From Edaphocola aurantiacus (lineage in GTDB: Bacteria > Bacteroidota > Bacteroidia > Chitinophagales > Chitinophagaceae): a DNA stretch of 64,000 nt. A program made the position numbers and the translations under genes. Of the stretch, positions 2,754-40,855 are shown in pieces. The stretch covers positions 744,001-808,000 of the forward strand of contig NZ_VOSI01000002.1 in the NCBI RefSeq assembly GCF_019797745.1, written 5' to 3'. Under the pieces are notes generated by a model, which saw nothing but the letters and a program-made list of their open reading frames with translations, did no database searches and was not told the DNA's origin. Each line of letters begins with the position of its first letter. Positions within the stretch are counted from its first letter, which is position 1.

Positions 2754-4709
2754 ATGGCTTTTGAAGACTTACCACAGATCGATCGGCCTTCTTTAAATAG
2801 TGATGCTTCGGCTATCGAGCTTCAGATTTTACTGAATAGGAACAGTGGTTTTATACTTCGTGAGGATGTCCCTGACCTCGGTTGTGATTTCGATGTCGAA
2901 CTTATAAAAAATGAGACACAGGCATCAAACTGGCGATTTGCACTTCAACTAAAAAGCGTTGAGTCTATTTCTTTTATACGGGATGGACTATATCTTTCTT
3001 ATTCATTTAAGACGTCTCGCCTTGGATATCTTTTGAGAAGGCAGCCTGCATATGGCCTTGTGGTGGTTTATGACGTGGTTTCGAAAAAACTTTATTATGA
3101 TTACGCAGACGAAATCTATAATCGTTTAATGCTAGATCGCGGTTCTGACGATTGGAAAGCTAATGACCAAGTAAACATCCTTATTCCAGTTGATAATGTT
3201 TTAACAAAACAGAGTGCAGAGGCATTACATAAAAAATTCATTGCTCGATTTGAACAGGGTGCACTGATGCATTTGTCTCAAGGTGCGAAATATGGACTGC
3301 CAACCGTCAATTTAGAGAGCAAGTCAGGTTTTGATTTTAACAACTTGGATGATGTGAAGAAAGCTTTGAAAAAATGGGGAATGAATTTGCTATCCCAATT
3401 CGATCTTCAAATTGTTTATGATCTGATCACTAAATTGCCAACATCCCAGATTCTGAGTGATAAAGAAATTTGTCTAATTGCATTGATAGTTTATGCTGAG
3501 TCTGGTAAATACGCAGATTCTGTTTTTTACACCGAGCGGATAAGGAAACGTTATGAGTTGACGGAATTCGAGAAAGGCTCGGTGGATTTTATAGAATTGA
3601 AAAATCAATTACGTCTCGGAGATATAGGACCAAAGGAATACATTGAACGGACTAGAAAACTGTTACCTGATGTTGTCAGTGCCAATTCACTGACCTTAAG
3701 GGTCAATATTTTGTATTTCGAGCTATGTATGGTTAAAGGATTGGAACCGATGCCTCTGGACATGGGAGAGCAAATTCAGCAATTGTTTTTTGACATAGAT
3801 AATGCAAACATTGACCCTCTACAGAAGCAATATCTTAAACTATGGAATGCTGAGAATTTGGAGCGTTGGATAGGTCATTTTCGAAGCGAGGGATTTGCTG
3901 AACTCTCTGTGCGCGAGAACATGGGTAAGCCTCTTACCTTATCAGAGCGATTGCAAAGAGCTGAGTCATTCGTGAAGGTGCACAATATGTTTTACACCTT
4001 TTTAAACGGCATTGACAGCTACGCAAAAGCAAATGACAATCTGATACTTCAAGCACATGTAATAAAGTTAATGATCAGATTTGAGCTGAGTTTTGAAATT
4101 GACCAGATTTCTCATGATTCTCCTCGACCCAATGACGTAGAATCAAAAATACCAAAGCTTTTAACCTTAACGCGTAGTGCTTTCAATACTTTTCTTTTAA
4201 ATAACCTGTATAACGATGCCTATCAGGTACTTCTGTTCCAAATTGACCTCTACTATGTGGGAGTTAATCGCTATCGGATTGAAAATAAGGAAATGATCGA
4301 TGAATTACTCAAAATCAAAATTGCTATGGAAAGGGAATATGAATTCAATGGGGAACTCAGTATTCCTTCCTTGTTGAAAAGTAAAACTGAGAATAACACT
4401 GAAAAGACATCTAATTTGGCGCATTTAATAGGCTTGAATGACGGGCAATTAGACACCCTCGCAGAGATAATGATGCAGTCTAATAAATTTCCAATGGCTA
4501 AGAAAATTAATATCACAAAGCAAATGAAAAGTTATCAGTTATTCTATGAGCGTTGTAAAGATCCATCTATTGAAGTACAGGAGGTTTTAGTTGCGGACCA
4601 AATTGCATACTCCAGTCCAGTTATTTTTATTCTGAAAAACCGTATTACAAATCTGGTGTCTTTGCCAAGTAACGACTTGGATGGACTTTTAAAATCTTGG
4701 GGATTTTGA
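2754..4709 (+). CDS. DUF4365-domain protein with long helical C-terminus
   Basis: The 651-residue protein opens with a DUF4365-type PD-(D/E)XK nuclease-like domain at residues ~15-150. Candidate catalytic residues are E36, D45/E49 and the Q65-L-K67 strand. The remaining ~480 residues are mostly helical and look like a repeat scaffold, but I recognise no domain there. DUF4365 proteins are frequent in defence islands, and the long C-terminus could be a sensing or assembly region (inference). It is a single gene with flanking gaps of ~230 bp on both sides and is AT-richer than the tra genes. The biochemical activity is untested from sequence alone. Confidence 0.7.
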   Translation: MAFEDLPQIDRPSLNSDASAIELQILLNRNSGFILREDVPDLGCDFDVELIKNETQASNWRFALQLKSVESISFIRDGLYLSYSFKTSRLGYLLRRQPAYGLVVVYDVVSKKLYYDYADEIYNRLMLDRGSDDWKANDQVNILIPVDNVLTKQSAEALHKKFIARFEQGALMHLSQGAKYGLPTVNLESKSGFDFNNLDDVKKALKKWGMNLLSQFDLQIVYDLITKLPTSQILSDKEICLIALIVYAESGKYADSVFYTERIRKRYELTEFEKGSVDFIELKNQLRLGDIGPKEYIERTRKLLPDVVSANSLTLRVNILYFELCMVKGLEPMPLDMGEQIQQLFFDIDNANIDPLQKQYLKLWNAENLERWIGHFRSEGFAELSVRENMGKPLTLSERLQRAESFVKVHNMFYTFLNGIDSYAKANDNLILQAHVIKLMIRFELSFEIDQISHDSPRPNDVESKIPKLLTLTRSAFNTFLLNNLYNDAYQVLLFQIDLYYVGVNRYRIENKEMIDELLKIKIAMEREYEFNGELSIPSLLKSKTENNTEKTSNLAHLIGLNDGQLDTLAEIMMQSNKFPMAKKINITKQMKSYQLFYERCKDPSIEVQEVLVADQIAYSSPVIFILKNRITNLVSLPSNDLDGLLKSWGF

Positions 4710-4937: not shown

Positions 4938-5741
4938 TTATTTTCCTACAACTTCAGATCTGAAATTTCTAATTTCACTGAGCACCATCTCAAGATCAGT
5001 TTGAGGTTCCGGCATCTGCCTGCTTGTAAAACTATAGAATTTCCAAATTTCCGCCACCTCATTTATAGGTACAAGGTATGGCTCATACAAGGAATTTGTG
5101 GATTCTAATAGTATATTTCCATCTTCCTGTACGGTTACCATTTTAAAAACGATATCCTGAGCAAATGAAAGTACCACAATGGCCGGAGTTCTTTTTTTTA
5201 GCATAAACCAATCCGTCACATATTCACCCGCTATAACGCTTCCATCTGGTATGGGAAGCATCGAATCGCCCTGACCACGAAAGAAACGGAAGGTCCCTGT
5301 ACCCGGCATATCGGGCATACTGAATCTTTGTAGTTCTTTTTCTATAAACTCCTGGTCTGCAAAGCCCCCTGAACTGTAGCCCATTTTAGCAGAGACCGGT
5401 ACATACTCTATATTTTCGTTATTGCTCTTATCTATACTAATAGCCAGTACCCTAAGATTACCTCCCTTGATGTATACATCATCTCCATTTTCCAGCTCTC
5501 TTAACTTAAGCTCGCCAATTTTGGATAAGTCAATTTGTAACAGTGTATCAATACTGAGCCTGTAAAATCTCGACAGCTTCAGAAGTTCTTCCATATTGGG
5601 CGATTTGGTTTTTCCATTTTCCAGGTTGGTATATTTTATTCTGTGCATACCCAAAGCCGCAGAAACCTGTTCCTGAGTGATTTTCCTTCGGTTACGCAGG
5701 AATCTCAAATTAGAGAAAAAATATATTTTTTGCGTATTCAT
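4938..5741 (-). CDS. HTH + S24 peptidase repressor (LexA/CI-like)
   Basis: Residues ~9-65 form an XRE-type helix-turn-helix and ~110-255 an S24 LexA-like self-cleaving peptidase domain. The catalytic dyad is visible as S160 in GQGDSMLP and K200 in DIVFKMV. Proteins of this kind block SOS genes until RecA filaments trigger autocleavage. The cleavage site, usually Ala-Gly, seems to read Met120-Gly121, so cleavage should be tested rather than assumed. It is divergent from the polymerase cassette across a 75-bp region holding palindromic operators (5747-5780), so control of both itself and the polymerases is likely. Confidence 0.9.
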   Translation of the reverse strand: MNTQKIYFFSNLRFLRNRRKITQEQVSAALGMHRIKYTNLENGKTKSPNMEELLKLSRFYRLSIDTLLQIDLSKIGELKLRELENGDDVYIKGGNLRVLAISIDKSNNENIEYVPVSAKMGYSSGGFADQEFIEKELQRFSMPDMPGTGTFRFFRGQGDSMLPIPDGSVIAGEYVTDWFMLKKRTPAIVVLSFAQDIVFKMVTVQEDGNILLESTNSLYEPYLVPINEVAEIWKFYSFTSRQMPEPQTDLEMVLSEIRNFRSEVVGK

Positions 5742-5746
5742 TTTTA

Positions 5747-5780
5747 CATGTTTATATTATGAACATGATTTATGTTCATA
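5747..5780. promoter_or_regulatory. Palindromic operators between repressor and polymerase genes
   Basis: A perfect 9-bp inverted repeat TATGAACAT-N5-ATGTTCATA spans 5758-5780. A second, overlapping pair, CATGTT (5747-5752) and AACATG (5762-5767), and a further GAACA half-site at 5785-5789 lie beside it. The region sits in the 75-bp divergent gap between the S24 repressor and the Y-family polymerase. These are the expected binding sites of the repressor. Confidence 0.8.
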
Positions 5781-5787
5781 TTTTGAA

Positions 5788-5795
5788 CAAATCTA
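5788..5795 (-). promoter_or_regulatory. Probable -7 box of the S24 repressor promoter
   Basis: On the minus strand this reads TAGATTTG, a match to the Bacteroidota -7 consensus TAnnTTTG, about 45 bp before the repressor start. Transcription from it would begin within the operator cluster, consistent with autorepression. No good -33 box is visible at the right spacing. Confidence 0.45.
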
Positions 5796-5816
5796 GTAAA
5801 AATTAATTGTAAAATT

Positions 5817-6995
5817 ATGGATAGGCATATTGTTCACTGTGATTTAGATACATTTTTTGTATCTGTAGAACGGTTGCTCAATTCTGAGTTGATGGGCAAA
5901 CCGGTATTAATTGGGGGTACAAGTGACCGGGGAGTGGTGGCTTCCTGCTCATACGAGGCCCGGAAGTATGGCATATATTCTGCCATGCCCATGCGGCTGG
6001 CCCGTCAGCTATGTCCCGAAGCCGTTCTGGTCAGGGGAGACTATGATCAGTATTCCAAATATTCCAATATAGTCACCCAGATCATTGAAGAAGTCGCTCC
6101 ATTGGTAGAAAAGGCGAGCATTGACGAGCATTACCTCGATATCTCTGGAATGGACCGCTTTTTCGGCTGCTGGAAGTGGACGCAGGAACTGCGAGGCCGG
6201 ATCATTAAAGAAACCGGGCTACCAATCAGCTTTGGGCTCTCCGTGAACAAGACCGTTTCCAAAATTGCTACAGGAGAGGCTAAGCCCTGCGGGGAGAAAA
6301 AAGTGGACACCGGGGCAGAACGGTCATTTCTGGCACCACTATCTATTAAGAAAATACCGATGGTAGGGGAAAAGTCATATACGACACTCCGTAATATGGG
6401 CATCTCACAAATTTATACGCTCCAGCAAATGGAAGTCTTTACCATGCGTAAAGTACTCGGTGAAAATGGGGTGTCTATCTGGAATAAGGCCAATGGTCTA
6501 GATAAAAGCCCTGTCGTGCCCTTCCGGGAACAAAAGTCCATGAGTAAGGAGACAACCTTTGAGGCTGATACCACGGATATGGAACGGCTCAGGAAAACCC
6601 TGGTCTCTATGGTGGATCAGCTGGCCTATGAATTACGGAAGGACGGCAAACTCACCGGATGTATTACACTAAAGATCCGCTATTCCAATTTCGATACCCA
6701 TACCCAGCAGGTAAAAGTATCCTATACCAATTCGGATAAACAGATTACCGCTAAGGTGATGGAGCTTTTTAAAAAACTCTACAGCCGGAGAATGCTCATC
6801 CGTCTGATCGGGGTAAAGTTTTCCAACCTGATTACCGGGAACTACCAGGTAGATATTTTTAACGATACGATGGAAGAAATCCACCTGATGCAGGCGATGG
6901 ATCACATCCGCAAGCGCTTCGGGGTGGAGTATATTATGAAAGGCATTTGTTTGGAAGGAAAAGGAGGGAAGTATGCTACTCAATTTGCACAGTAA
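5817..6995 (+). CDS. Y-family translesion DNA polymerase (DinB/UmuC type)
   Basis: The 392-residue protein has the Y-family catalytic signature: D9 in HCDLDTFF, SYEARKYG at ~45-52, and D103-E104 in SIDEHYLD. Fingers, thumb and little-finger regions follow to the end. Such enzymes copy damaged templates with low fidelity. The gene overlaps the downstream DnaE-like gene by 23 bp, so the two are co-translated, and the S24 repressor is divergent. This resembles an ImuB/DnaE2-type SOS mutasome carried on a mobile element, but here the Y-polymerase keeps its acidic catalytic residues whereas ImuB proteins normally lack them. Confidence 0.92.
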   Translation: MDRHIVHCDLDTFFVSVERLLNSELMGKPVLIGGTSDRGVVASCSYEARKYGIYSAMPMRLARQLCPEAVLVRGDYDQYSKYSNIVTQIIEEVAPLVEKASIDEHYLDISGMDRFFGCWKWTQELRGRIIKETGLPISFGLSVNKTVSKIATGEAKPCGEKKVDTGAERSFLAPLSIKKIPMVGEKSYTTLRNMGISQIYTLQQMEVFTMRKVLGENGVSIWNKANGLDKSPVVPFREQKSMSKETTFEADTTDMERLRKTLVSMVDQLAYELRKDGKLTGCITLKIRYSNFDTHTQQVKVSYTNSDKQITAKVMELFKKLYSRRMLIRLIGVKFSNLITGNYQVDIFNDTMEEIHLMQAMDHIRKRFGVEYIMKGICLEGKGGKYATQFAQ

Positions 6996-9912
6996 TTATA
7001 GCCTTCGCTATGGTACAATGAGCCTGGATGACCTGATCGCTGGGATGATGGCCACTGGTCATGATAGTGCCGTACTCACCGATATTAATAATAGTTCTGC
7101 ATCCATTCACTTCATCCAGAAGGGACGGAAGGCAGGGCTAAATATGCTGGCCGGTATGGAACTGCGCCAGGGTGATGAACTTCGGTTTATCGCCATTGCT
7201 AAAAATACCGAAGGATTCCGCGAGATCAACGAGTACCGTACCCATGCCAACCAACATGAGCTATCAATCCCGAAACGCGCCCCCGAGTTCCGCAATGTAT
7301 TTGTCATCTACCCATTTGGTAGTATAGCCGTAAGCCAACTTCGGGATTATGAGTATATCGGCCTACGGCCGTCCGAACGTAATCTGATCGTACTGGAACC
7401 CAAAACCAATTATGAGCGCTATGTCATATTGGCCCCTGTGAGTTATAAATCAGCGGACTATAAGCTACATTGCCAGTTGCGGGCAATTGACCATAATATC
7501 CTGTATTCCCAGCTGGAAAAGAGCCAGGTTGCGCCAAAGGACGAAGTATTTATAACTCGTGTAAAACTACTGGAATTGTACCAGCAGTTCCCGCAGCTTA
7601 TTGCCAATACAAACCGATTGATGGGACAGTGTTCCTTTGATATGGATTTTAAAAAGATCAAGAATAAGGAAACCTTTACCGGTGCACGGTATAGCGATAA
7701 AGAGCTGCTGCTGTTATACACCAGGGACGGATTTATCAATCGATATCAAAAGCATGATAAAATAGCGCAAGAGCGGATTACTAAAGAACTGGAGATCATC
7801 GAGAACTTGAACTTCTCCAGCTACTTTTTAATTACCAATGATATTTGTCGCTACGCAAAGGGACGGAACTTCCATTATGTGGGCCGGGGCAGTGGCGCAA
7901 ACTCCGCGGTTGCCTATTGCCTGGGCATAACCGATGTAGACCCCATTGAGTTAAATCTTCCCTTTGAACGGTTTCTAAATCCGAAGCGGCAATCACCACC
8001 GGATTTTGATATTGATTTCTCATGGAACGAAAGGGATGATATCTATAAATATATTTTTACCAAATACAAAGGACCGCATACCGCATTGATGGGCGCAATG
8101 AGCACGTTCAAGGGAAGAAGCATCCTCCGGGAGTTGGGCAAGATCTATGGCCTGCCCAAAGGCGAAATTGACCGCTTGGTGCATGAGCCGGCAAATATGC
8201 TGAACAAAAATGAGGTGGCCAATATGATCCTGAGTGTATTTAACCGCCTTGAAGATTTTCCCAATCAGCGAACTATCCATGCTTCAGGGGTATTAATTTC
8301 CGAGCAGCCCTTAACCTGCTACTCTGCCCTGGACTATCCGCCGAAGGGATTGCCCACCGTGCAGTACGATATGTATGTGGCCGAAGATATAGGATTTGAA
8401 AAATTCGATATCCTGAGCCAGCGAGGTCTTGGCCATATTAAAGACTGCAGGGACATTGTGCTGCAGAACACAGGCCAGGTGATTAGTACGGAAAGTCCCA
8501 AGCGGTTTTTTAAAGATCCAAAGATTGCCGAGCAGTTGCGCAACGCAAAAACCATAGGCTGTTTTTACATCGAAAGCCCGGCCATGCGCCAGCTGATTAC
8601 CAAGTTAAAGTGTGATGACTACCTGACCCTAGTGGCGGCTTCATCTATTATTCGTCCCGGTGTAGCCAGTTCGGGAATGATGGCAGAATTTATCAAGCGG
8701 CATCATGATCCAAGTCTCGTGCAGTATCCTCACCCGGTATTTAAAGAACAGCTCGAGGAAACCTATGGAGTAATGGTATACCAGGAAGATGTAATGAAAA
8801 TAGCTAATGCCTACGGGGGATTGGATATGGCTGATGCCGATGTACTGCGTAGAATGATGTCGGGTAAATACCGGAGCAAGGATCACCTGGTGCTGATCCA
8901 TGATAAGTATTTTGCCAATTGTAAGGCCAAAGGCTACCCAGAGGAGGTGAGCCGGGAAATATGGCGGCAGATGGAGAGCTTTGCAGGCTACAGTTTCAAT
9001 AAGGCGCATTCAGCCAGCTTTGCGGTTGAAAGCTATCAGAGTCTGTTTTTAAAAACATACTACCCGCTAGAATTTATGGTTTCGGTGCTCAATAATTACG
9101 GGGGCTTTTATAATGCAAAAGTTTATATCAACGAGGCAAAAGTTTCCGGGGCTACTATTTGTCTGCCATGTGTAAATACCTCTGGTTTCCAGGCAATCAT
9201 TCAGGGAAAGGATATTTACCTGGGGTTTGACCGGTTGCTGAATATGAAAGAGGGACTGGCGCACGGGATTGCGCCGGAACGGGAACGTAATGGCGATTAT
9301 ACAGGTCTGGAAAATTTTGTGATACGGACAGGGGCCAGCCTGGAACAGCTCATTATCCTGATACGAGTTGGTGCCTTCCGTTTCCTGGGCATAGGTAAAA
9401 AGGAACTGCTGTGGGAGGCCCATTTACTGCTCAGCACGGACAAAAAGGAGCAGTCCAAGGGGATGGTGCTATTTGAATCGATGAGTCGCAAGCCGGTACT
9501 GCCTAAACTGGAGCATTCTATCCTTGAAGACTATTATGATGAAATTGAGCTGATCGGCTTTGTCGTGTCCGGTAGCTCTTTTGACTTGGCCAGGTCTGAG
9601 TATCGGGGAGAATGCAAAGCGAAGGATTTATTAAAATTTCTAGGAAGAACTATACGGATTGTGGGTGACTTTGTGACGGATAAAACGGTAAAAACCAAAC
9701 ATGGAACTTATATGAAATTTGGGACGTTCTTTGATGAAGACGGAGATTTTTTCGATACGGTGCATTTTCCACCTTCTTTGGAAGCTTATCCGCTAAGGGA
9801 TTGGGGCCTTTACCTGATTGAAGGAAAGGTTGTGGAGGAATTCGGCTGTCCGGCAATAGAGGTTTCCAGGTGTGGGAAAATGCCATTAAAGGCTGATCCG
9901 AGAAGCGTTTGA
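6973..9912 (+). CDS. DnaE-like DNA polymerase III alpha subunit (error-prone type)
   Basis: The 979-residue protein has the C-family order: PHP domain (~1-210), polymerase palm with GRGSGANSAVAY (~305) and catalytic D344/D346 in PPDFDIDF, then fingers, helix-hairpin-helix and OB regions. It is shorter than replicative DnaE (~1160) and closer to DnaE2/ImuC. The first PHP metal-binding His appears to be Asn4 (LNLHSNYS), which argues against PHP exonuclease activity. A strong ribosome binding site (AAGGAGGG) inside the end of the Y-polymerase gene fixes the start. Likely role: translesion extension with the upstream enzyme after DNA damage. Confidence 0.9.
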   Translation: MLLNLHSNYSLRYGTMSLDDLIAGMMATGHDSAVLTDINNSSASIHFIQKGRKAGLNMLAGMELRQGDELRFIAIAKNTEGFREINEYRTHANQHELSIPKRAPEFRNVFVIYPFGSIAVSQLRDYEYIGLRPSERNLIVLEPKTNYERYVILAPVSYKSADYKLHCQLRAIDHNILYSQLEKSQVAPKDEVFITRVKLLELYQQFPQLIANTNRLMGQCSFDMDFKKIKNKETFTGARYSDKELLLLYTRDGFINRYQKHDKIAQERITKELEIIENLNFSSYFLITNDICRYAKGRNFHYVGRGSGANSAVAYCLGITDVDPIELNLPFERFLNPKRQSPPDFDIDFSWNERDDIYKYIFTKYKGPHTALMGAMSTFKGRSILRELGKIYGLPKGEIDRLVHEPANMLNKNEVANMILSVFNRLEDFPNQRTIHASGVLISEQPLTCYSALDYPPKGLPTVQYDMYVAEDIGFEKFDILSQRGLGHIKDCRDIVLQNTGQVISTESPKRFFKDPKIAEQLRNAKTIGCFYIESPAMRQLITKLKCDDYLTLVAASSIIRPGVASSGMMAEFIKRHHDPSLVQYPHPVFKEQLEETYGVMVYQEDVMKIANAYGGLDMADADVLRRMMSGKYRSKDHLVLIHDKYFANCKAKGYPEEVSREIWRQMESFAGYSFNKAHSASFAVESYQSLFLKTYYPLEFMVSVLNNYGGFYNAKVYINEAKVSGATICLPCVNTSGFQAIIQGKDIYLGFDRLLNMKEGLAHGIAPERERNGDYTGLENFVIRTGASLEQLIILIRVGAFRFLGIGKKELLWEAHLLLSTDKKEQSKGMVLFESMSRKPVLPKLEHSILEDYYDEIELIGFVVSGSSFDLARSEYRGECKAKDLLKFLGRTIRIVGDFVTDKTVKTKHGTYMKFGTFFDEDGDFFDTVHFPPSLEAYPLRDWGLYLIEGKVVEEFGCPAIEVSRCGKMPLKADPRSV

Positions 9913-9995
9913 TTTTTTAAAAAATTAAGCACATAATAGAGATTATATTTAAAACGAAGAAAAATCCATATATCTTTAGTTTCAACAACTACATT

Positions 9996-11099
9996 ATGAC
10001 TTTTTTAGAAATTATAAGGCATCCAATAACGGATTTACCAATACAATATACACGGCCGTTTCGTGAAGAGATAAATAGCCGTATTAAATTATTCGGTGAA
10101 ATACTTGATAGTTCAGATAATTTGTGTGACGGAATGAATGATAAAACATTCCATGAGGACTATTTTAAAAAAAATAATAGGATTTTAAGAGATGGAATTC
10201 TTAAGGCTGTGGATGTTTATTATGAAGGTAATCCTAGTGGAGCATATATCACATTAAAAGAAGCACTGGAAAAATCCCATCTCTCTAACTTTCTAGATAA
10301 AAAAAGTGAGCTACCTGCAAATTCCAGTTTATTCAGAATTCGTCCAATTAATTCTAATTATGCACTATCCAAAGAAGAAATGTTTCATATTCCATTTGAA
10401 TTGAGGACGAAGGTAAATACTCAGCGGTACAGTATCCCAGGGTTACCATCCTTATATTTATCCAATTCTATTTATGTTGCTTGGGAAGAACTTAAGCGTC
10501 CAGGAATTAGCGAAATCCAAGCGGCTAGAATTGTAAATAACAATTCGTTGAATCTTTTAGATTTAACGTCCGATATTTTTTCAAAGAATGATCATTTGGA
10601 GAATAACTTCTCTTACAGTTGGAGTTTGCTTTATAAAGTAATGGTATGGCCTCTAATAGCAGCATGTTCCTTTAAAGTCAAAAATCCTTTAGATTCCTTT
10701 AAGCCGGAGTATATCATTCCACAACTTCTTTTACAATGGGTAAATAAGAGTTTTATATACGGCATCAAATATTCCTCAACCCATATTAACAGAAAAGAAG
10801 ATAATCATGATGGATACTTTTACAATGTAGTAATTCCAGTACGGACATTTAATAAGGAAGAAGGACATTGCTCACAATTACTTGCAGCATTTCGATCCAC
10901 CCAAGTACTTCCGCTCCAAATAAGGCAGTTTGTTACGGTATCTGATAGGCTCGCCCACCAGCCATCAATACAATCTAATGTAAATCCAGATATTTCAGGA
11001 ATTGAATTAATAAAAGGCTATATACAGCCCTATTCGTCAACAATTTTTGGAATGTTAGAACATAATTTGCATGGAATAGAAACAGCTAACTTTGACTGA
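9996..11099 (+). CDS. RES-domain protein, probable NAD-targeting effector
   Basis: In this 367-residue protein, residues ~1-110 form an N-terminal helical domain and ~118-290 a RES domain. Visible RES features are FRIRP (R124/R126), RYSIPGLPSLYLS (154-166), E174 and the late YGIKYSS. RES toxins degrade NAD+ and normally pair with an Xre/MbcA-type antitoxin; no such antitoxin is next door. Instead the partner, 39 bp downstream, is a DUF4365 nuclease-like protein. The pair is visibly AT-richer than the polymerase genes before it, which suggests separate acquisition. N-terminally extended RES proteins occur in conflict systems; an abortive-infection role is inference. Confidence 0.75.
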   Translation: MTFLEIIRHPITDLPIQYTRPFREEINSRIKLFGEILDSSDNLCDGMNDKTFHEDYFKKNNRILRDGILKAVDVYYEGNPSGAYITLKEALEKSHLSNFLDKKSELPANSSLFRIRPINSNYALSKEEMFHIPFELRTKVNTQRYSIPGLPSLYLSNSIYVAWEELKRPGISEIQAARIVNNNSLNLLDLTSDIFSKNDHLENNFSYSWSLLYKVMVWPLIAACSFKVKNPLDSFKPEYIIPQLLLQWVNKSFIYGIKYSSTHINRKEDNHDGYFYNVVIPVRTFNKEEGHCSQLLAAFRSTQVLPLQIRQFVTVSDRLAHQPSIQSNVNPDISGIELIKGYIQPYSSTIFGMLEHNLHGIETANFD

Positions 11100-11138
11100 G
11101 TATAGTAGAAGTAATTTTAAATTCTAAAGAAAGAAAAA

Positions 11139-11990
11139 ATGAGAACTTTTCAGCATATAATAGATACAAAAGCGGTTAAACAAGTTTTAAATAATATTCC
11201 AGAGCACTGCGTAATCAGGGAATTGACTGAGCGAGATTACGGAATAGATCTAATGTTAGAAATATTTACAGAGGATGGGGAAAATAGTCAAGGCCATCAA
11301 AATTATTCAGGCACTGGACATATCTGTTACTTCCAAGTAAAAGGAACTGAAACTCCTTTGGAGATTAAGAATGAGACAATCACATATCAAATTGAAAAAA
11401 AAGCGCTACTGTATATTGAGAAATTTGCGACTCCATTTATTTTATTAAGGGTATGCACGGCAAAAGGACATGAGCGAATTGCATTTATCTGGCTACAGAG
11501 ATATATAGCCGATGTTTTAGATTTTGACCGACCCAATTGGAGAAATGTAGATCAAGATTCATTTTCAATAAAGATTCCTGCTGGTAATACATTATCTAGA
11601 TTTAGTAAGATAGAACAGATTGCTGCTAGAATAAAATATTTGGAAGAACTTGCTGACTTCTTTGAGATTTGGGATGAATTAAAGATCTTTTTTTCTAATT
11701 GTATCATCAACTCAACATTGGATCCCCAATACTTTGCACATATAAGGAAAAAGTTAAGCCGTATCTGTAACTTACATACCTTATTCAAATATAATTATTG
11801 CTGCATTGATGAAAACTCAATTGTAGAATTAAGGGAATATATAAATGAAATTGAAAGAGGTTTAAAAAAACCAAATGATATGGAAGATTTTCCAGAATAT
11901 CACAATTTGGACCTTTTAGCATCAAGTACATTTTCGATAAAATTTATTGAAAATCTTACTGCGGAAAATGATAGTGATACTGTCTATTAG
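11139..11990 (+). CDS. DUF4365-domain protein, partner of the RES protein
   Basis: The 283-residue protein has a DUF4365 PD-(D/E)XK-like core at ~10-150 with candidate residues E31, D37 (DYGID), E41 and Q66-V-K68. The C-terminal ~130 residues are helical and unassigned. It follows the RES gene by 39 bp on the same strand with equally low GC, so the two look like one transcription unit. It could sense or cut foreign DNA, or restrain the RES protein; the sequence cannot decide between these. Confidence 0.7.
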   Translation: MRTFQHIIDTKAVKQVLNNIPEHCVIRELTERDYGIDLMLEIFTEDGENSQGHQNYSGTGHICYFQVKGTETPLEIKNETITYQIEKKALLYIEKFATPFILLRVCTAKGHERIAFIWLQRYIADVLDFDRPNWRNVDQDSFSIKIPAGNTLSRFSKIEQIAARIKYLEELADFFEIWDELKIFFSNCIINSTLDPQYFAHIRKKLSRICNLHTLFKYNYCCIDENSIVELREYINEIERGLKKPNDMEDFPEYHNLDLLASSTFSIKFIENLTAENDSDTVY

Positions 11991-12045: not shown

Positions 12046-12873
12046 TTATACATCATAAACTAATTCCGGAACTTCTGCGTAAACAAATGCTTTACCGGGA
12101 GTTCCAGTTGTTTTAAAGTCCTTTTCTATCGTATAAGCTTCCATTTCTTTTGCGCTGATCTGGTAGGTAGCGAGTTCAGTAATACGCTCTTCTGAAAGAT
12201 CGCCCATTATCCATTCCCAGGCCAGTTCATCAGGGAGCATGGTGGGCATCCTGTTTTTGGAATTATGGATCTGTCTCATTAATGAGTTGGCTTCTGTAGT
12301 TACCAGAGCAACAGTGTCTACCGTTTCTCCGGTATCCTTGTCCGTCCAGTTCTGCCAGATCGCAGCAATAAAGAAATACTCTTTATCCTTTAATCCAATA
12401 TGGTATGGATACTTTTTAGCCGTTTTTAGCGGTTCTCCTGTCCGTTTATTAGTAGGATAAATATGTTGCCATTCATAGAACTCAGAAGATAGGATAAGGC
12501 AGCGTCTTTCCAAAGCAGCTTTCCGAAACATTTTCTCCTTTCCTGTACTTGGGTCTACATATAGCAGTTCTTCACCTTTTGCATTTAAGGTAGTGTACGG
12601 TTGATGCCATTTCCCAGTACCATCTTTGTAGCCAAACCGCATCTTACCCACGGCATCCCTGTTTTTAGTATATGGTGGAATAAAGCCCCATTCCATCTGG
12701 ACAATATCGAAGTTACATTTATCGGCAGTGGGTTTGATCACTGCAATATTGCCATAACTGAAACCATCATGGATGTCCTTATCCAGGAAGTCATAGTTTA
12801 CGACCGCTTTTTCCAGATCCATAAGGCGGATAAATTCCGCACGGCTAACTTTTTGTCCGTTATAATAACACAT
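12046..12873 (-). CDS. SRAP-domain protein (YedK/HMCES family)
   Basis: This 275-residue SOS-response-associated peptidase family member keeps the catalytic Cys2 exposed after Met removal, the CLILSSEFYEW motif and IHNSKNRMPTMLP. The family forms a covalent thiazolidine crosslink with abasic sites in single-stranded DNA and protects them. It is the last gene of a short minus-strand unit with 12877-13119 (3-bp gap). Its closeness to the SOS polymerase cassette fits a shared DNA-damage role, though no full operator palindrome is seen upstream. Confidence 0.92.
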   Translation of the reverse strand: MCYYNGQKVSRAEFIRLMDLEKAVVNYDFLDKDIHDGFSYGNIAVIKPTADKCNFDIVQMEWGFIPPYTKNRDAVGKMRFGYKDGTGKWHQPYTTLNAKGEELLYVDPSTGKEKMFRKAALERRCLILSSEFYEWQHIYPTNKRTGEPLKTAKKYPYHIGLKDKEYFFIAAIWQNWTDKDTGETVDTVALVTTEANSLMRQIHNSKNRMPTMLPDELAWEWIMGDLSEERITELATYQISAKEMEAYTIEKDFKTTGTPGKAFVYAEVPELVYDV

Positions 12874-14426: not shown

Positions 14427-15482
14427 TTATTCCTTTAAAAATGCTGTATATTGTTGGCTTCTTGCAAGAATTGGAGCAATTTCAGATAGGTAAGACTGCT
14501 CATCTTTTAACCACCTTTTGATAACCTTAATATACTTTTTTTGATCACTACTAATTTCTTCCCGCATTTGATCGAGTTGTAGTCTTCTTAAACTGCCAGC
14601 AAGGTCTAATTGCTTTTGTTCCAAATCAGTCAACTTTCCCTCTTGGAACAGTTGATATGCACTATAAGAGGAAAGAATTTTTTTTGTGATTGTAACCAGC
14701 ACATCAATTAGCTTTGAATAGGTGATTAAGCTACTTTTTTGCGTTCCTAGAAACTTATTGAAACTTGATTCACCGTTTAAAATGGGATAAATACCTGAGA
14801 ATTGGTTTTTTAGTGGAGAAAAGTAAGGAATGTCAAATGGAAATAGCTTTAACCATTTTTCATATTGGTTTATGAGAATATTTAAATCTGCCTGTTTTAC
14901 TTCAGTATTTGGTTCAGAATAACCTTCAAGATAGTTAAGTATTGTTGTCATTCTATCCTTAGGATACTGAACTTTTCCCGAATTATTTTTAATAATCCAT
15001 TTTGAGAATACCAGATAGTCTTCCAGGCCTAATGGTGGCCCAAACCCTGCCGGAAACTGTCCGAAAGAATAAATGCAGTATTCTATAAACTGAGTTATTT
15101 CTTCATACCAGTCATCAACATTTACTTTATTCAAAATCTGATATTCTGTAAAATGAACTGCTTTGGCGGTATGAAGGGGTAAGCCCATATAATTTAATTT
15201 ATCAAACCATGCCTGGCCCTCCAGTTTTGCATGCTGTGCACAACATTTAGGAAATATGGAGATATGCTGTTGTACATCTTCAACAATCCGCTCGTGAACC
15301 GTGCAGCAGTATGGAAAACCTTCGGGTTCTTTATATTCCTGATCAGGGCTATTGATTACGTTATACCGTATTTCAAAGTCCGTGTGCTCCAGGAAAGCAA
15401 TATTTGTATGTTGATGATTCAGTTGTTTAAATACCCGGGCCATTGCCAGTGGGTTTGTAAGGTGTATATTTCTAGTGCTCAT
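14427..15482 (-). CDS. Unknown 351-residue protein with two CCxxH motifs
   Basis: The start at ATG 15482 (MSTRNIHLTN) overlaps the end of the upstream nuclease gene by 11 bp. A longer open frame to 15584 runs inside that gene and is rejected. The N-terminal part carries C59-C60-x2-H63 and C80-C81-x2-H84, two identical CCxxH units 16 residues apart, which may bind zinc or an iron-sulfur cofactor. The middle is aromatic-rich and the last ~120 residues are helical and charged. I recognise no family. Translational overlap with the nuclease strongly suggests that the two act together. Confidence 0.65.
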   Translation of the reverse strand: MSTRNIHLTNPLAMARVFKQLNHQHTNIAFLEHTDFEIRYNVINSPDQEYKEPEGFPYCCTVHERIVEDVQQHISIFPKCCAQHAKLEGQAWFDKLNYMGLPLHTAKAVHFTEYQILNKVNVDDWYEEITQFIEYCIYSFGQFPAGFGPPLGLEDYLVFSKWIIKNNSGKVQYPKDRMTTILNYLEGYSEPNTEVKQADLNILINQYEKWLKLFPFDIPYFSPLKNQFSGIYPILNGESSFNKFLGTQKSSLITYSKLIDVLVTITKKILSSYSAYQLFQEGKLTDLEQKQLDLAGSLRRLQLDQMREEISSDQKKYIKVIKRWLKDEQSYLSEIAPILARSQQYTAFLKE

Positions 15483-16599
15483 ATTCATGTTCAAAATAAT
15501 CAGTAAATTGGGGTGGATCATTATATTCTGGCTGTTCAGGGTCGATGATAATTTCTTTAAGCTGCCAGTAATAGGTCGTATCATAATTGATGAATAAGGA
15601 TCCCGATTCTGTTTTTTCAGCAGAAAGCAATCTCCACTTTATTTCAAGTTGTCCTTTATCATCAATTGGTTTTAGCGCAAAGGTTTCAAACTTTGCATAG
15701 TCCTGGGGGACGAGTACTGTATTTCCGGGAACAATTTGCCAGTGAGTGTCTGAAATTTTTCTTATTTTAAAAGAAAGTAGATCAAAATTTAAAGGTTGAC
15801 GTTTGTAGATTTTGCCCAATTCAATTTTAGAGGTGTTACCAATTATTTCCATTTCAACTTTATAATTATGAATAGGTTCATTACCAGTGTTTTTTAAGAA
15901 CAACCCAAAGTATATATAGCTTTTATTGATCAGGTTATGGTCCATTTGAGCGCCTAATGTTTTGGATATCAAATTGGAAAATTTAAACGCTTTTTGAATT
16001 GCCGGATTTTTGATAAATGTTCGCTCAGGCCCTGGCTTGTGCCTGTATTTAGTAATATGCTTTTGCCGTTCGCATAAAACATCCATGGTATTTTTATCAC
16101 CTAAAAAGGTTAATTCGGTATTCAGATTAACCTTAAACCCTATAGACTTTACATAAAAGTTGTAGGTGTCTTTATGTTCCAAAATCAGATCCACAATATC
16201 TTCCCAGGAAAAAAGGTGTACTTCAAATAATCCCAGTTGCTGGTTTTCTAAATCTTTTAATCTAATATACTCTTCGATTTTGGTATCCTTATTTGCAGTT
16301 GTGGCAAAATATAGTTTCTTAATTTGAGGCTTGAAATCTTTGGCTTTTTCTATTTCGGTATCAATTTCGGCATTTGTCAATTGGGCATGGGTATAGCTAT
16401 CCTTGCCTTTACACTGTATACCATAATACTGTGTTTCCCCATTTGGTTTACCGTACACATCCACCCCATGTTGTGCCTGGCCACTTCTACCGTTTTGCTT
16501 AATCTCCCGGCACTGCCAGATTTCACCCCATAGCTTTTTACATAGGGTCTCAAAATCTTGCCAATTGGCTGGTTTATTTAATTGTACTTTTGCTTGCAT
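15472..16599 (-). CDS. Predicted Mrr-like PD-(D/E)XK nuclease with C-terminal beta domain
   Basis: Residues ~8-150 match the Mrr-type restriction endonuclease fold: E17 in the first helix, NGRSGQAQHGVDVYG giving D47, and YYGIQCKGK giving Q62 and K64. The Trp/Asp-rich C-terminal half (~190-375) looks like a beta-sandwich recognition or interaction domain and is unassigned. Mrr-like enzymes cut modified or foreign DNA. The gene lies 34 bp after the membrane-anchored gene 16634-17272 and overlaps the CCxxH gene, forming a three-gene minus-strand operon of low GC. A defence role is inferred. Confidence 0.75.
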   Translation of the reverse strand: MQAKVQLNKPANWQDFETLCKKLWGEIWQCREIKQNGRSGQAQHGVDVYGKPNGETQYYGIQCKGKDSYTHAQLTNAEIDTEIEKAKDFKPQIKKLYFATTANKDTKIEEYIRLKDLENQQLGLFEVHLFSWEDIVDLILEHKDTYNFYVKSIGFKVNLNTELTFLGDKNTMDVLCERQKHITKYRHKPGPERTFIKNPAIQKAFKFSNLISKTLGAQMDHNLINKSYIYFGLFLKNTGNEPIHNYKVEMEIIGNTSKIELGKIYKRQPLNFDLLSFKIRKISDTHWQIVPGNTVLVPQDYAKFETFALKPIDDKGQLEIKWRLLSAEKTESGSLFINYDTTYYWQLKEIIIDPEQPEYNDPPQFTDYFEHEYEH

Positions 16600-22165: not shown

Positions 22166-22558
22166 ATGGAAACAAAATATACGATCAATAAAGGGGTGAA
22201 CCGGCCCATAGAATTCAGGGGGCTAAAAGCCCAGTACATATATATACTTGCGGTAGGACTGGCCGTGTTGCTGGTCCTGTTCGTGTCAACTTATATAGCG
22301 GGGGTACCCATATACCTATGCCTGCCGATGGTGGTGTTGTCAGGATCTGTGTTGTTTATGGTTGTTTACCGGTTGAGCAATAGGTATGGAGCATTCGGCT
22401 TAATGAAAGCCCTTGCTCATAGAAAGGTACCCTCCGCTATTATTTGTCGCTCCAGGAGCGTCTTTAAACATGGTTTGTGCATAGAAAAGGTGAAAAAGGA
22501 TGATCATAATATTAATACTATCAGGGCTGCTGCTGGCTGCAGTACTGCTTCAAAGTAA
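22166..22558 (+). CDS. traF: Conjugative transposon protein TraF (DUF4133)
   Basis: The 130-residue protein opens with the DUF4133 signature NKGVNRPIEFRGLKAQYIY (~8-27), followed by two transmembrane helices (~27-48, ~50-70). TraF is a VirB3-like inner-membrane component. The 3' end overlaps traG by 59 bp, an unusually long coding overlap; the last ~25 residues are unlike the family and may be a read-on extension. Confidence 0.85.
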   Translation: METKYTINKGVNRPIEFRGLKAQYIYILAVGLAVLLVLFVSTYIAGVPIYLCLPMVVLSGSVLFMVVYRLSNRYGAFGLMKALAHRKVPSAIICRSRSVFKHGLCIEKVKKDDHNINTIRAAAGCSTASK

Positions 22559-25028
22559 AGAGCCCTTATCGGGAGCCGGTGAGCTGGAAACACTATTGCC
22601 CATCTGGAAGATTGAGCAGGATTGTATTCTTTCTAAAAAAGGGGATGTCACGATTGCGTTCCGTCTGCAGCATCCGGAGATCTTTACACTTTCAGGCAGT
22701 GAATACGATAATCTGCACCAGATCTGGTTAAAGGCTATAAAGGTCCTTCCGGCAGGAACGATCCTGCACCAGCAGGACTGGTTTACCAAACAAAACTATC
22801 GTTCTGCTTTTGGCGAGGATAGTAATTTCCTGGACAGGGCAAGTGAACTGCATTTTAACGAACGGCCATATCTGGCTCATGATAGTTTTTTGATGCTTAC
22901 CCTGAAGGCTAAAGACCGGCGGCCATCAACGTCTGCGGTATCCTCGCTGCTGAGAAAAAGCATGGTCAAAGAAAGCATTGATGCCAAAGGACTGCAACAA
23001 CTCCTTGATATTGTAGGACAATTCCGCAGTATCCTTTCTGATGGCGGATTCTTATCGCTGGAGCAATTACTGGAAAAAGATCTGGTTGGAACGGATGCAG
23101 TTCCCGGATTACTGGAGCGCTACCTGTTTCTGCTATCCAAAGAAGAAAAACCGGAACTAAAGGATATCACCTTTAAACCGGAATGGAAGGTAGGGGAGCA
23201 ATATTGCCAGCTGTACACGATGGCTGATACGGAAAATATGCCGGCAAGCTGTGGCCCTCAGAAACAATATGGTAAGTATTCTACCGACAAAACAAAGTTT
23301 GCGGTTGGTTTTGCCACACCGGTAGCGCAGTTATTACCGGTAAATCATATCTACAACCAATATATGGTGATAGCCGATACGACCAATACCTTAAAACGAC
23401 TGGAGGCCAAGAGAAAACGGATGCAGTCATTGGCTTTGTACAGCAGGGAAAATGCGATAGGTAAAGAAGCCATACAGGAGTATTTAAATGAAGCTATCGG
23501 TCAGGGACGCACGCTTATTAAAGCACATTTTAACCTGCTTTGCTGGACAGATGACCGGGAAGGTATTAAGGAACTGCGTAACCAGGCAGCATCTGCACTG
23601 GCAAAGATGGATGTTACCCCACACCTGGAAACCAGCGGTGCCCCACAGATCTGGTGGGCGGGGCTGGCCGGCAATGAAGGCGAACTGCCGGAAAATGATT
23701 GCTTTGACACCTTTGCCGAACAGGCGACCTGCTTTTTGAATATGGAAACGGCATACCGGAGTTCCAACAGTCCTTATGGTATCCGCTTTGGAGACCGCCT
23801 TACGGGTACTCCTGTATTGGTAGACCTCAGTTTTGAACCGATGTCCAAAGGTATTGTCAGTAACAGGAATAAACTCGTGGTTGGCGGATCGGGATCTGGT
23901 AAGAGCCTTCTGATGAATCATATCCTGCACACCAATGTCCAGCAGCAGGCCCATTGTGTGATTGTAGACGTAGGCCATAGCTACTCTGGTCTCTGCGAGC
24001 TGTTGGGGGGATACTATTTTACCTATAGGGAAGATGACCCGATCCGGTTCAATCCTTTTTACCTGCCACCGGGCGACATTCTGGATACCGAAAAGAAGGA
24101 AAGCATCAAGACTTTACTGGTGGCATTATGGAAACAGGCAGATGAGTCCTTCAGGCGAAGTGAATACGTAGCGATATCCAATGCCCTGCAATCCTATTAC
24201 ATATACCTGGGTAGCCATCCGGAGATATTTCCCTGCTTTAACAGCTTTTATGAATTCCTGCAGACTGAATTTGTAAAAGAGCTAGAAGCAGATCATGTCA
24301 AGGATAAGGATTTCGATATGCATAATTTCCTTTATGTGCTCAGGCCATTTTACCGGAACGGGGAGTTTGATTTTTTGCTCAATGCGACCGAGAACCTGGA
24401 TCTGCTGCACCAGCCATTTGTGGTCATAGAGCTGGACAATATTAAGGATCATCCTATCCTTTTTGGGATCGTGACCCTGATTACAATGGAGTTATTTATC
24501 TCAAAGATGCGTAAGCTAAAAGGTATCCGGAAGGTAATTGTGATTGAAGAAGCCTGGAAAGCCATCAGCAAAGGTGGCATGGCTGAATTTATGAAATACC
24601 TGTATAAAACGGTGCGCAAGCATTTTGGCGAAGCGGTCACGGTGACCCAGGAGCTGGATGATATTATCGGTAATGAGATTGTAAAGGATGCGATCATCAA
24701 TAGTGCGGATTGTAAGATTATACTGGACATGAAAAAGTACCAGAACAATTTTGAAGCCATACAGAAAGTGCTGGGCATGACCGATAAGGGGAGGGATCTG
24801 GTATTGTCGATCAATAAATCAAATGACCCGGCCTATCGCTATAGGGAAGTATTTATTGATCTGGGTGGGACTCAGATGAAAGTGTACCGTTACGAGCCAT
24901 CTCCTTATGAATATTATGCCTTTACTACGGAACAGAGTGAAAAGGTATTGGTAGAACAGTACGCCAAAAAATATGGCAGTATCCAGAAAGGAATCGCGGC
25001 ACTGGTGGCCGATCAGAAGAAAAAATAA
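22500..25028 (+). CDS. traG: TraG, VirB4-type conjugation ATPase
   Basis: The 842-residue protein has an N-terminal hydrophobic helix (~2-16), Walker A GGSGSGKS at 462-469, and Walker B KVIVIEEAWK at ~678-687. This is the VirB4 ATPase that powers pilus or channel assembly. It is the largest gene of the operon, and its start lies inside traF. Confidence 0.95.
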   Translation: MIIILILSGLLLAAVLLQSKEPLSGAGELETLLPIWKIEQDCILSKKGDVTIAFRLQHPEIFTLSGSEYDNLHQIWLKAIKVLPAGTILHQQDWFTKQNYRSAFGEDSNFLDRASELHFNERPYLAHDSFLMLTLKAKDRRPSTSAVSSLLRKSMVKESIDAKGLQQLLDIVGQFRSILSDGGFLSLEQLLEKDLVGTDAVPGLLERYLFLLSKEEKPELKDITFKPEWKVGEQYCQLYTMADTENMPASCGPQKQYGKYSTDKTKFAVGFATPVAQLLPVNHIYNQYMVIADTTNTLKRLEAKRKRMQSLALYSRENAIGKEAIQEYLNEAIGQGRTLIKAHFNLLCWTDDREGIKELRNQAASALAKMDVTPHLETSGAPQIWWAGLAGNEGELPENDCFDTFAEQATCFLNMETAYRSSNSPYGIRFGDRLTGTPVLVDLSFEPMSKGIVSNRNKLVVGGSGSGKSLLMNHILHTNVQQQAHCVIVDVGHSYSGLCELLGGYYFTYREDDPIRFNPFYLPPGDILDTEKKESIKTLLVALWKQADESFRRSEYVAISNALQSYYIYLGSHPEIFPCFNSFYEFLQTEFVKELEADHVKDKDFDMHNFLYVLRPFYRNGEFDFLLNATENLDLLHQPFVVIELDNIKDHPILFGIVTLITMELFISKMRKLKGIRKVIVIEEAWKAISKGGMAEFMKYLYKTVRKHFGEAVTVTQELDDIIGNEIVKDAIINSADCKIILDMKKYQNNFEAIQKVLGMTDKGRDLVLSINKSNDPAYRYREVFIDLGGTQMKVYRYEPSPYEYYAFTTEQSEKVLVEQYAKKYGSIQKGIAALVADQKKK

Positions 25029-25041
25029 GGGTATAGAGGTT

Positions 25042-25725
25042 ATGAAAAAACAAGCAAGAACAATGCTGGCGCTGCTGCTGATTGTAGTAATGGTTTGCGC
25101 ACCAGCGAAGCAGTCCCATGCGATTGGTATTTATGAAATCATAAAAGCGGCTGTTACCAAGGTAATTAAGGCTGTTGACCTGAAGATTCAGCGCATGCAG
25201 AACAAGACGATATGGTTGCAGAATGCTCAAAAAGAACTGGAGAACAAGATGTCCAAACTAAAACTTGGCGAGATATCGCAGTGGACAGAAAAACAGCGGC
25301 AACAGTATGATGCCTATTTCAAGGAGCTCTGGCGGGTAAAGAACGCCCTGGCAACTTATAAAAAGGTAAAGACTGTAACGCAGAGACAACTTCAGATTAT
25401 TGAAGAATACAGAAGGGCATGGTCGCTATTGCAAAAGGATAAGCATTTTGAGCCAAAGGAGCTGGAGTATATGTACAAAGTATATTCTGGAATGCTGGAA
25501 GAAAGTATGCGGAACCTCGATCAGCTCATACTGGTGATCAATTCTTTCCGTACACAAATGAGCGACGGGAAGCGTATGGAGCTTATTGCCCAGGTAGACA
25601 AGGATATGGAAACTACCCTTATTGACCTTAGGAAGTTCAGCGACCGCAATTTTCGCCTAAGTATTTCCCGGTCAGCTGATCAGAAAGAGGCCGATCACTT
25701 AAAGGAAATCTACGGTTTAAAATAA
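25042..25725 (+). CDS. TraI-like conjugation protein, copy 1
   Basis: Start chosen at ATG 25042 after AGAGG. The 227-residue product has a signal peptide (to about HA-IGIY) and a long helical body. The segment FEPKELEYMYKVYSGMLEES ... MSDGKRMELI aligns with the copy at 27709-28335. Bacteroidetes TraI-type proteins are periplasmic helical components of the transfer apparatus, sometimes annotated as TerB family; exact role unknown. Confidence 0.8.
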   Translation: MKKQARTMLALLLIVVMVCAPAKQSHAIGIYEIIKAAVTKVIKAVDLKIQRMQNKTIWLQNAQKELENKMSKLKLGEISQWTEKQRQQYDAYFKELWRVKNALATYKKVKTVTQRQLQIIEEYRRAWSLLQKDKHFEPKELEYMYKVYSGMLEESMRNLDQLILVINSFRTQMSDGKRMELIAQVDKDMETTLIDLRKFSDRNFRLSISRSADQKEADHLKEIYGLK

Positions 25726-25731
25726 GGTACT

Positions 25732-26142
25732 ATGAAACAAGAAAAACGGGGAAATTTATTGGCAGACAAGCTCAGGATGTTACTGAACCAAAAGGGATAC
25801 CGCAGACGCTTTACTCTAAGGGCAATCGGCAGGCGGCAATGTAGCGGTGAAATAACGGAATGCCTCGAGCAGTTTTTGGGCCAGCAGTGCTCTGGTATCG
25901 TATCGCTGGAACTGGAAACAATGGCCCCTTACAATGATCAGATTACCTGCCGTTTCGCTTTGGACTATGAGCCTGATAAGGGTTTTAAGATTAAGGAACT
26001 TACTGTAGGGAAGCCTGGCTATCCGTCCCGTACTTTTCCCTGCGCTACAGGCCAGGACATACCGGGGAGCATGAGCCTAGAAGGATTATTTAAAAAGCCA
26101 AAGCCCTGGGAATGGAATATGAAAGGCAAATACAGAATGTAG
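25732..26142 (+). CDS. Unknown 136-residue tra-region protein
   Basis: This small, basic, soluble protein begins 6 bp after TraI-like copy 1 and ends 16 bp before copy 2. It contains four cysteines (CSGEITEC, CSG, C in ITCRF region) without a clear metal motif. No family recognised; the position implies co-expression with transfer genes. Confidence 0.65.
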   Translation: MKQEKRGNLLADKLRMLLNQKGYRRRFTLRAIGRRQCSGEITECLEQFLGQQCSGIVSLELETMAPYNDQITCRFALDYEPDKGFKIKELTVGKPGYPSRTFPCATGQDIPGSMSLEGLFKKPKPWEWNMKGKYRM

Positions 26143-26158
26143 GACTGTAAAGAAGACG

Positions 26159-26812: not shown

Positions 26813-26817
26813 AAATT

Positions 26818-27684: not shown

Positions 27685-27708
27685 TATAGATGAATAAAAG
27701 GAAAGAAG

Positions 27709-29351: not shown

Positions 29352-29393
29352 AAGCAAGTGTATTGTAGAGAAGAATGAAAAAGAGGAGAAATG

Positions 29394-30011: not shown

Positions 30012-30013
30012 TC

Positions 30014-30334: not shown

Positions 30335-30346
30335 AAACAAAAGAAA

Positions 30347-31636: not shown

Positions 31637-31649
31637 AAATAATAATACA

Positions 31650-40742: not shown

Positions 40743-40743
40743 G

Positions 40744-40816: not shown

Positions 40817-40855
40817 AATCCGGGGTATTTATTAGAGATGTTTTCCTTCATCTTG

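Follow-up and report, generated by a model that had tools for sequence, protein, structure and literature searches.

Here, we analysed a 64-kb stretch of the Edaphocola aurantiacus genome (contig NZ_VOSI01000002.1, positions 744,001 to 808,000; hereafter the window) and found a three-gene cassette in which an HTH_3/S24 repressor gene diverges from the genes of a Y-family polymerase and a DnaE-like polymerase. We read it as a self-regulated translesion-mutagenesis cassette borne by an integrative and conjugative element (ICE), with a probability of about 0.76. Coordinates refer to the window unless given as positions on contigs C1, C2 or C3 or with locus (L) or genome (G) numbers. The repressor gene (4938-5741, minus strand) encodes 267 amino acids, the Y-polymerase gene (5817-6995, plus strand; Pfam IMS and IMS_C) a Pol IV-like protein of 392, and the DnaE-like gene (6973-9912, plus strand; Pfam DNA_pol3_alpha, finger, HHH_6 and PHP) a DnaE2-type protein of 979. 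All three reading frames are intact, and the two polymerase frames share 23 bp, the layout of a two-gene operon. The arrangement is that described in an earlier note made from the sequence of this DNA.

Both polymerases are recognised by profile models. The Y-polymerase scores 284.4 bits against the Pol IV model PRK02406.1 (NCBIfam, cut-off 256); among NCBIfam models Pol IV ranks first (300 bits), with UmuC at 108 bits. The DnaE-like protein reaches 489.5 bits against TIGR00594, the polymerase III alpha superfamily (cut-off 434.35), and contains a PDFDIDF motif. The catalytic acids D9, D103 and E104 that the earlier note ascribed to the Y-polymerase are all present, and its remark that this is unlike ImuB is correct, though the same had been reported before for this group of polymerases (PMC6511836). 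The ImuA-ImuB-DnaE2 mutasome likewise combines a Y-family protein with a DnaE2-type polymerase, but its ImuB is catalytically dead, whereas the Y-polymerase here keeps its catalytic acids. A Pfam scan gave no ImuB-type C-terminal domain in the Y-polymerase, and no ImuA gene was recognised within the cassette. A further likeness is to the putative PolY2-DnaE2 or DnaE2B-PolY-RecA mutasome of Bacteroidetes, which pairs an active Y-polymerase with DnaE2 (PMC6511836, PMC12926913) and shares with our cassette the intact Y-polymerase acids, a gene in the operon that is DnaE2-type by profile models, and the lack of an ImuB-type C-terminal domain; the cassette has in addition a dedicated divergent repressor and an ICE location. 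A motif like the RecA N-terminus has been reported in Y-polymerases coupled with DnaE2 (PMC6511836), and compared by eye the tail of the Y-polymerase here, AMDHIRKRFGVEYIMKG, resembles the N-terminus of host RecA, TLDKIDKDFGKGSVMKLG. By analogy, the active complex is probably formed by Y-polymerase, DnaE2 and RecA.

The cassette is carried by a 113-kb ICE in tRNA-Lys. Conjugation genes for TraG, TraJ, a TraK-like protein, TraM and TraN occupy 22500-32483 on the plus strand (P-loop_TraG, CtnDOT_TraJ, Transposon_TraM and DUF4138 matches); the TraK-like frame at 29391-30011 has no Pfam match and is named from its position between TraJ and TraM. The insert encodes a relaxase, and a tyrosine integrase (39116-40537, minus strand; Phage_integrase, Phage_int_SAM_5 and Arm-DNA-bind_5) adjoins the tRNA. 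There are two tRNA-Lys genes, at 40743-40816 and 40855-40928. The right attachment repeat, the 18-bp TTTGTGATCCCGCTGGGA at 40740-40757 (C2:784740), sits in the tRNA-Lys 3' end, and its left copy is found at C2:671644-671661. The same-genus genome G034 contains TTTGTGATCCCGCTGGGA once with the flanks joined, an empty site: G034 C1:1256556-1258215 matches C2:670001-671661, and G034 from 1258197 onwards matches C2:784739 onwards. Because of the repeat copies at C2:671644 and C2:784740 and this empty site, the insert, which includes the cassette, measures about 113 kb; the right flank is matched in three further same-genus genomes. The claim of the earlier note that the cassette is ICE-borne is thus borne out by transfer genes, relaxase, integrase, direct repeats and empty site. 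TraG, TraJ, TraM and TraN, the relaxase, the tyrosine integrase, the tRNA repeats and the empty site are all those of a CTnDOT-type ICE of Bacteroidetes, as far as sequence alone tells.

Between the start codons of the cassette stand two predicted operator sites, site A (TGTTTATATTATGAACA, 5749-5765) and site B (TGTTCATATTTTGAACA, 5773-5789), the second beginning 24 bp after the start of the first. Both are exact TGTTYA-N5-TGAACA dyads, a motif with 2 exact matches in the 3.69-Mb genome, both of them here, and equivalent dyads occur in related cassettes. The earlier note had proposed one operator at this place, a perfect 9-bp inverted repeat around five bases, TATGAACAT-GATTT-ATGTTCATA. This 23-bp palindrome does stand at 5758-5780 free of mismatches, is the sole match in the window even with 3 mismatches allowed (0.05 expected from shuffles), and in its exact form occupies a single position in the genome, where the earlier note had suggested looking for further copies across the full ICE. 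It consists of the right half of site A, the left half of site B and neighbouring bases. That it is itself the single operator, as its perfect 9-bp arms, 5-bp spacer and uniqueness would favour, we consider unlikely. Of the 188 loci examined, 7 contain the exact palindrome, and all 7 are copies of this one place; it is absent from the homologous cassettes, a finding that the earlier note had named beforehand as speaking against its proposal, and paired 17-bp dyads recur there. In the closest relative, L017, the palindrome arms span only 7 bp, and site B keeps 6 of 6 pairs. Judged by eye, the dyad starts lie 23 or 24 bp apart in relatives, and the spacer between the dyads therefore varies. Our two-site dyad scan imposed an N5 spacer; a free-spacer scan likewise gave perfect within-site dyads with a 5-bp spacer in L019, L045, L049, L051 and L053. 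Moreover, the proven geometry of this regulator family is dyad-N5-dyad inside each site (PMC8565304), which is retained at the window cassette. Because the exact palindrome occurs nowhere else and 17-bp dyads recur in its place, we prefer two tandem operator sites to a single palindrome.

Sanchez-Osuna et al. (2021, PMC8565304) found no canonical LexA homologue in the phylum Bacteroidetes, which has a non-canonical LexA instead, with CTAA-N5-TTAG as its main SOS box. Between the repressor and Y-polymerase genes of the ICE there is no CTAA-N5-TTAG, no GGA-N5-TCC was seen in the printed intergenic sequence, and among the matches listed no host-type TGTTAY-N5-RTAACA site with at most 1 mismatch falls at the ICE cassette; a promoter scan of the same region, with a sigma-70 rather than a Bacteroidota-type consensus, was uninformative. 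The host-type motif belongs to a second cassette on the chromosome (C1:869567-874524), whose repressor, Y-polymerase and DnaE are 52%, 82% and 74% identical to the ICE copies, and whose intergenic region holds TGTTATTAATAGTAACA, of the same geometry with a different half-site. Inspection by eye of the open reading frames in the 20 kb around it revealed no conjugation gene. The ICE and chromosomal repressors are the only ones of this type found by a genome search; a third Y-polymerase (33% identity) lies on contig C3. TGTTAY-N5-RTAACA is exact at two places, the chromosomal cassette and C3:347979, and with at most 1 mismatch has 65 matches against 64 for the reversed control, so that no regulon is visible for it. 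In the 400 bp upstream of host recA there is no CTAA-N5-TTAG and a single TG-N13-CA string that is not a clean dyad.

From these comparisons, the ICE cassette has a predicted private operator, probably not recognised by the repressor of the host, and since its half-site differs both from that of the host paralogue and from CTAA-N5-TTAG, we expect the switching of the module to be independent of the SOS genes of the host. The earlier note had placed the cassette under control of the element rather than of host LexA: the first half fits the private operator, but the second presupposes a protein of which no canonical homologue is reported for the phylum (PMC8565304). Nor does the ICE confer a wholly new mutagenesis capacity on this host, as that note supposed for a recipient, because a homologous repressor and polymerase cassette is on the chromosome; it adds a second mutasome, probably separately switched.

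Is this arrangement found elsewhere? From a Y-polymerase scan of a species-genome collection we took the best 80 of 129 loci as relatives, and 14 of these 80 have a divergent, adjacent repressor homologue. Dyads at the same place recur in the closer related cassettes, and the half-site differs between lineages. The left half of site B is TGTTCA in the window and L017, TGTTAC in L019 and L045, TGTCAY in L041, L043 and L049, TGACAC in L050 and L051, and TGCTAC in L053; in several relatives the counterpart of site B is a perfect dyad with another half-site. In the same-genus genome G217 (L098), TGTTATTATTGATAACA and TGTCATTATTAATGACA stand 24 bp apart with 12 of 12 pairs; the repressor gene downstream of them is not opposite this Y-polymerase. 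Within 250 bp upstream of the Y-polymerase, CTAA-N5-TTAG occurs in 0 of the 14 loci with a full-length adjacent repressor against 27 of 66 others (p 0.002), and TG-dyads upstream in 9 of 14 against 11 of 66 (p 0.0007). The 14 include L083, with a repressor of 29% identity; without it the counts are 0/13 against 27/67 (p 0.003) and 9/13 against 11/67 (p 0.0003). All these p values overstate independence because the Sphingobacterium rows are close kin. Six of those loci (L020-L025) combine partial, HTH-only matches (frames of 88-89 amino acids in L020 and L024) with a TGCTAC dyad and a CTAA box, and counting them as repressors makes the TG-dyad contrast stronger (15/20 against 5/60). Sphingobacterium faecium holds both kinds, L037 with the common CTAA box and L053 with its own repressor and dyad.

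Window and L017 repressors share 62 of 70 N-terminal residues (89%) and only 59 of 153 C-terminal ones (39%); their half-sites are shared, site A being identical and site B differing in the spacer. The recognition-helix region, placed from the predicted structure, is HRIKY in both repressors; members of the TGNNAY group mostly have [TS]R[SA]KL there. This one pair, set against the rest, is suggestive of half-site and DNA-binding domain travelling together, and the L017 repressor (L017:9123-9926), a mosaic relative to that of the window, suggests a domain exchange with the operator kept. Other copies are altered: a Taibaiella metagenome-assembled genome (L019:9000-10003) has lost the repressor gene and kept two TGTTAC dyads, so that its polymerases may be unregulated, no repressor gene being left; the L045 repressor is a 188-residue, apparently frameshifted frame, the L049 repressor is cut off by the contig end, and in L043 the best DnaE match spans only 467 of 979 residues. 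A Y-polymerase tree (n=37) joins the window with L017 (99/97) and places the host chromosomal copy next to them (88/78, below our support mark). On this tree the own-repressor label needs 5 changes, at least 3 forced by well-supported branches, and the own-repressor cassettes are therefore not one clade.

Six further genomes carry the cassette near homologous conjugation genes, one of them (L019) without the repressor. TraG is present in the genomes of 8 of the 12 cassettes searched and, for 6 of the 12 (L017, L019, L043, L045, L050 and L053), on the contig of the cassette at a distance of 25-75 kb; further homologues of genes of this ICE, TraJ, TraK and TraN among them, accompany it in these six loci. 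Leaving aside L041, L044, L047 and L049, on contigs below 33 kb, TraG lies within 80 kb in 6 of the 8 long-contig cassettes against 0 of 16 controls (p 0.0002), a limit chosen after the distances were seen. These controls are loci without a full-length adjacent repressor, 7 of the 16 from genomes without any TraG and three (L036, L039, L048) on contigs of 109-164 kb. If L019 is moved to the loci without a repressor, the linkage becomes 5/7 against 1/17 (p 0.003). The integrase homologue abuts tRNA-Lys in L017, L043 and L050, and the stretches read of L045, L019 and L053 showed no tRNA. Five plasmid records also carry the Y-polymerase, at 51-61% identity. A facing regulator is present on the Chryseobacterium shandongense and Emticicia pEMTOL01 plasmid copies; the intergenic region of the former holds TGTCATAATTTATGACA, that of the latter no 5-of-6 dyad. 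The Adhaeribacter plasmid copy, which has no facing regulator, contains CTAACAATATTAG, absent from the two opened copies with a regulator.

An ICE repressor next to polymerases recalls the SXT/R391 ICEs, in which the ICE-encoded S24 repressor SetR takes part in controlling the ICE-encoded rumAB (PMC9578287). The likeness is an ICE repressor helping to control an ICE-encoded mutagenic polymerase, here predicted from sequence; the difference is that rumAB are umuDC homologues, whereas our cassette has a Pol IV-like polymerase and a DnaE partner. SetR also governs the transfer genes of its element (PMC9578287), and there is no sign of such control here. Were the repressor such a master switch, controlling also excision or transfer, the polymerases would be one target of several. 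The SetR precedent and the company of homologous conjugation genes in six further genomes speak for this possibility, which we regard as improbable: neither the ICE nor the genome has a further exact operator, and of the 25 one-mismatch sites in the genome 2 lie in the ICE (C2:747413 and C2:766363), where about 0.8 would be expected by genome share. A wider regulon of the ICE repressor was likewise rejected, no additional exact site being found genome-wide.

The repressor matches HTH_3 at 43 bits (Pfam cut-off 23), and G121, S160 and K200 are invariant across a 15-row repressor alignment. Foldseek ranked the lambda-186 hybrid repressor and LexA C-terminal domains at the top (E from 2e-4, TM score by target mostly 0.35-0.69); a search of solved structures by sequence gave two matches only, both HTH. 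Judged from sequence and model, the protein is a divergent relative of the non-canonical LexA proteins, S24-type with a putative Ser160-Lys200 dyad and a predicted LexA-type fold. The Pfam match, the invariant Ser and Lys and the Foldseek ranking thus support the S24-type repressor of the earlier note. A phage origin of the repressor was rejected, one pattern-based scan of viral contigs having found no relatives.

Several results weigh against a self-regulated, damage-inducible cassette. A two-dyad shuffle test covered 43 upstream regions, the 14 cassettes and 29 loci (L097-L125, 13 with a facing Y-polymerase in reach); L097 duplicates L018, and the second 'dyad' of L100 is not of the TG/CA type. 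The score was equalled by at most 3 of 300 shuffles in 12 of the 43 regions; the other 31 fail to stand out, and for the host chromosomal region 197 of 300 shuffles were as good. Because any N5 dyad was accepted, the TG and CA ends play no part in the test and are not established by it. In this AT-rich DNA, single 5-of-6 dyads arise in 1569 of 2000 letter shuffles, or in 51 of 2000 if they are to begin with TG. The CTAA contrast vanishes when L020-L025 are counted as repressors (6/20 against 21/60, p 0.79). As to the repressor, its S24 match of 20 bits is under the Pfam cut-off of 23.3, and its predicted structure is modest, with a mean predicted local distance difference test (pLDDT) score of 69.0 and values below 50 for residues 92-142, the cleavage region. 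Finally, its predicted scissile bond is Met120-Gly121, not Ala-Gly. A strict-pattern scan of 109 loci allowed 29 relatives to be parsed, with Ala-Gly in 27 and Met-Gly in 2 (L018 and L097, both among the 27, are one locus).

The Met at P1, where relatives have Ala in 27 of 29 parsed cases, could mean that the repressor is uncleavable and the cassette permanently silent cargo, or switched by a signal other than RecA. We hold this to be unlikely. Both Met-Gly relatives (L099 and L100), from one genus in the family of the host, diverge from a gene that we take, from its sequence, to be imuA-like; the Met-Gly bond thus recurs beside an SOS-type gene, and the repressor may be cleavable. UmuD, moreover, is cleaved at Cys-Gly, and the P1 residue is therefore not fixed (PMC8565304), and all three reading frames of the cassette are intact. 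Because of its Met-Gly bond we file the repressor as a variant related to non-canonical LexA rather than as a standard member. Like that family it is an HTH_3 and S24 repressor with a dyad-N5-dyad site, divergent from an error-prone polymerase; it differs in its core, TTCA-N5-TGAA instead of CTAA-N5-TTAG or GGA-N5-TCC (PMC8565304), in Met-Gly instead of Ala-Gly, and in being carried by an ICE. Paralogues with diverged sites, and promoters with at least two sites, have been described for non-canonical LexA (PMC8565304). One such paralogue, opposite an error-prone polymerase in Elizabethkingia anophelis, binds TTAC-AAATT-GTAA and is induced by mitomycin C (PMC8565304), which we count in favour of a self-regulated cassette because the arrangement is the same.

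Beyond the existence of the sites, we infer every step of the following mechanism. A repressor dimer would sit on each 17-bp dyad, 7 bp from one start codon and 27 bp from the other, and the bound dimers would silence both the repressor gene and the two polymerases. Damage would generate single-stranded DNA and host RecA filaments, which would provoke S24 self-cleavage of the repressor; host RecA would thus be a sensor borrowed by the ICE. The two polymerases would then copy past lesions with errors, while the RecA-like Y-polymerase tail would keep hold of RecA.

Earlier work describes the family of the regulator (PMC8565304), the pair of polymerases (PMC6511836, PMC12926913) and, as a principle, the control of an ICE polymerase by an ICE repressor (PMC9578287). 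Our search of the open-access literature found no account of the cassette on Bacteroidota ICEs or of its element-specific operators, and the strings conjugative, integrative and plasmid are absent from the main text of PMC8565304. The cassette joins the non-canonical LexA (PMC8565304) and the mutasome of two active polymerases (PMC6511836, PMC12926913) with conjugative elements, which the portions consulted of either body of work do not mention. If the private-operator reading is true, mutagenesis modules under separate control are being spread through this phylum by conjugation, and half-site drift provides a natural repressor-operator set for testing specificity change in S24 repressors. Some of the additional LexA-like paralogues with unusual operators reported in PMC8565304 may also stem from ICE cassettes. 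More speculatively, and with considerable doubt, we suggest a family of Bacteroidota ICEs in which operator specificity has drifted between elements, such that the switch would ignore the repressors of the host and probably of most other elements. The polymerases would then undergo zygotic induction in conjugation, a burst on entry because the operators would be free in a cell without the cognate repressor. If true, this would couple transfer to translesion synthesis and make the new strand or the recipient a target of mutagenesis.

Further genes surround the cassette. An SOS response-associated peptidase (SRAP) gene (12046-12873, minus strand; PF02586, 113 bits), on the opposite strand and outside the operon, is a possible partner; weak SRAP-like matches (25-26% identity) lie close to the cassette in L017, L053 and L019, and annotated SRAP genes adjoin 2 of the 3 plasmid copies opened. 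DUF4365 proteins are encoded on both sides, at 2754-4709 and 11139-11990. The ICE also encodes an Mrr-like restriction gene (15472-16599) and a D12-class adenine methyltransferase (35858-36700). Its left end (L149:1887-9071, 9130-10431 and 10586-11608) has by eye the look of a defence cluster, with two large ATPase-like frames (one scanned: AAA_23), an HNH-like, a possible TIR-type and a C5 cytosine methylase frame. Left of the window, C2:728447-742634 (L013) holds a lantibiotic-dehydratase-like gene, a LytTR response regulator with an adjacent sensor-like frame, a SusD/TonB receptor pair and an ECF sigma factor. L017, L019, L043, L045, L050 and L053 also have homologues of several L013 genes near the cassette, but not every locus has all of them.

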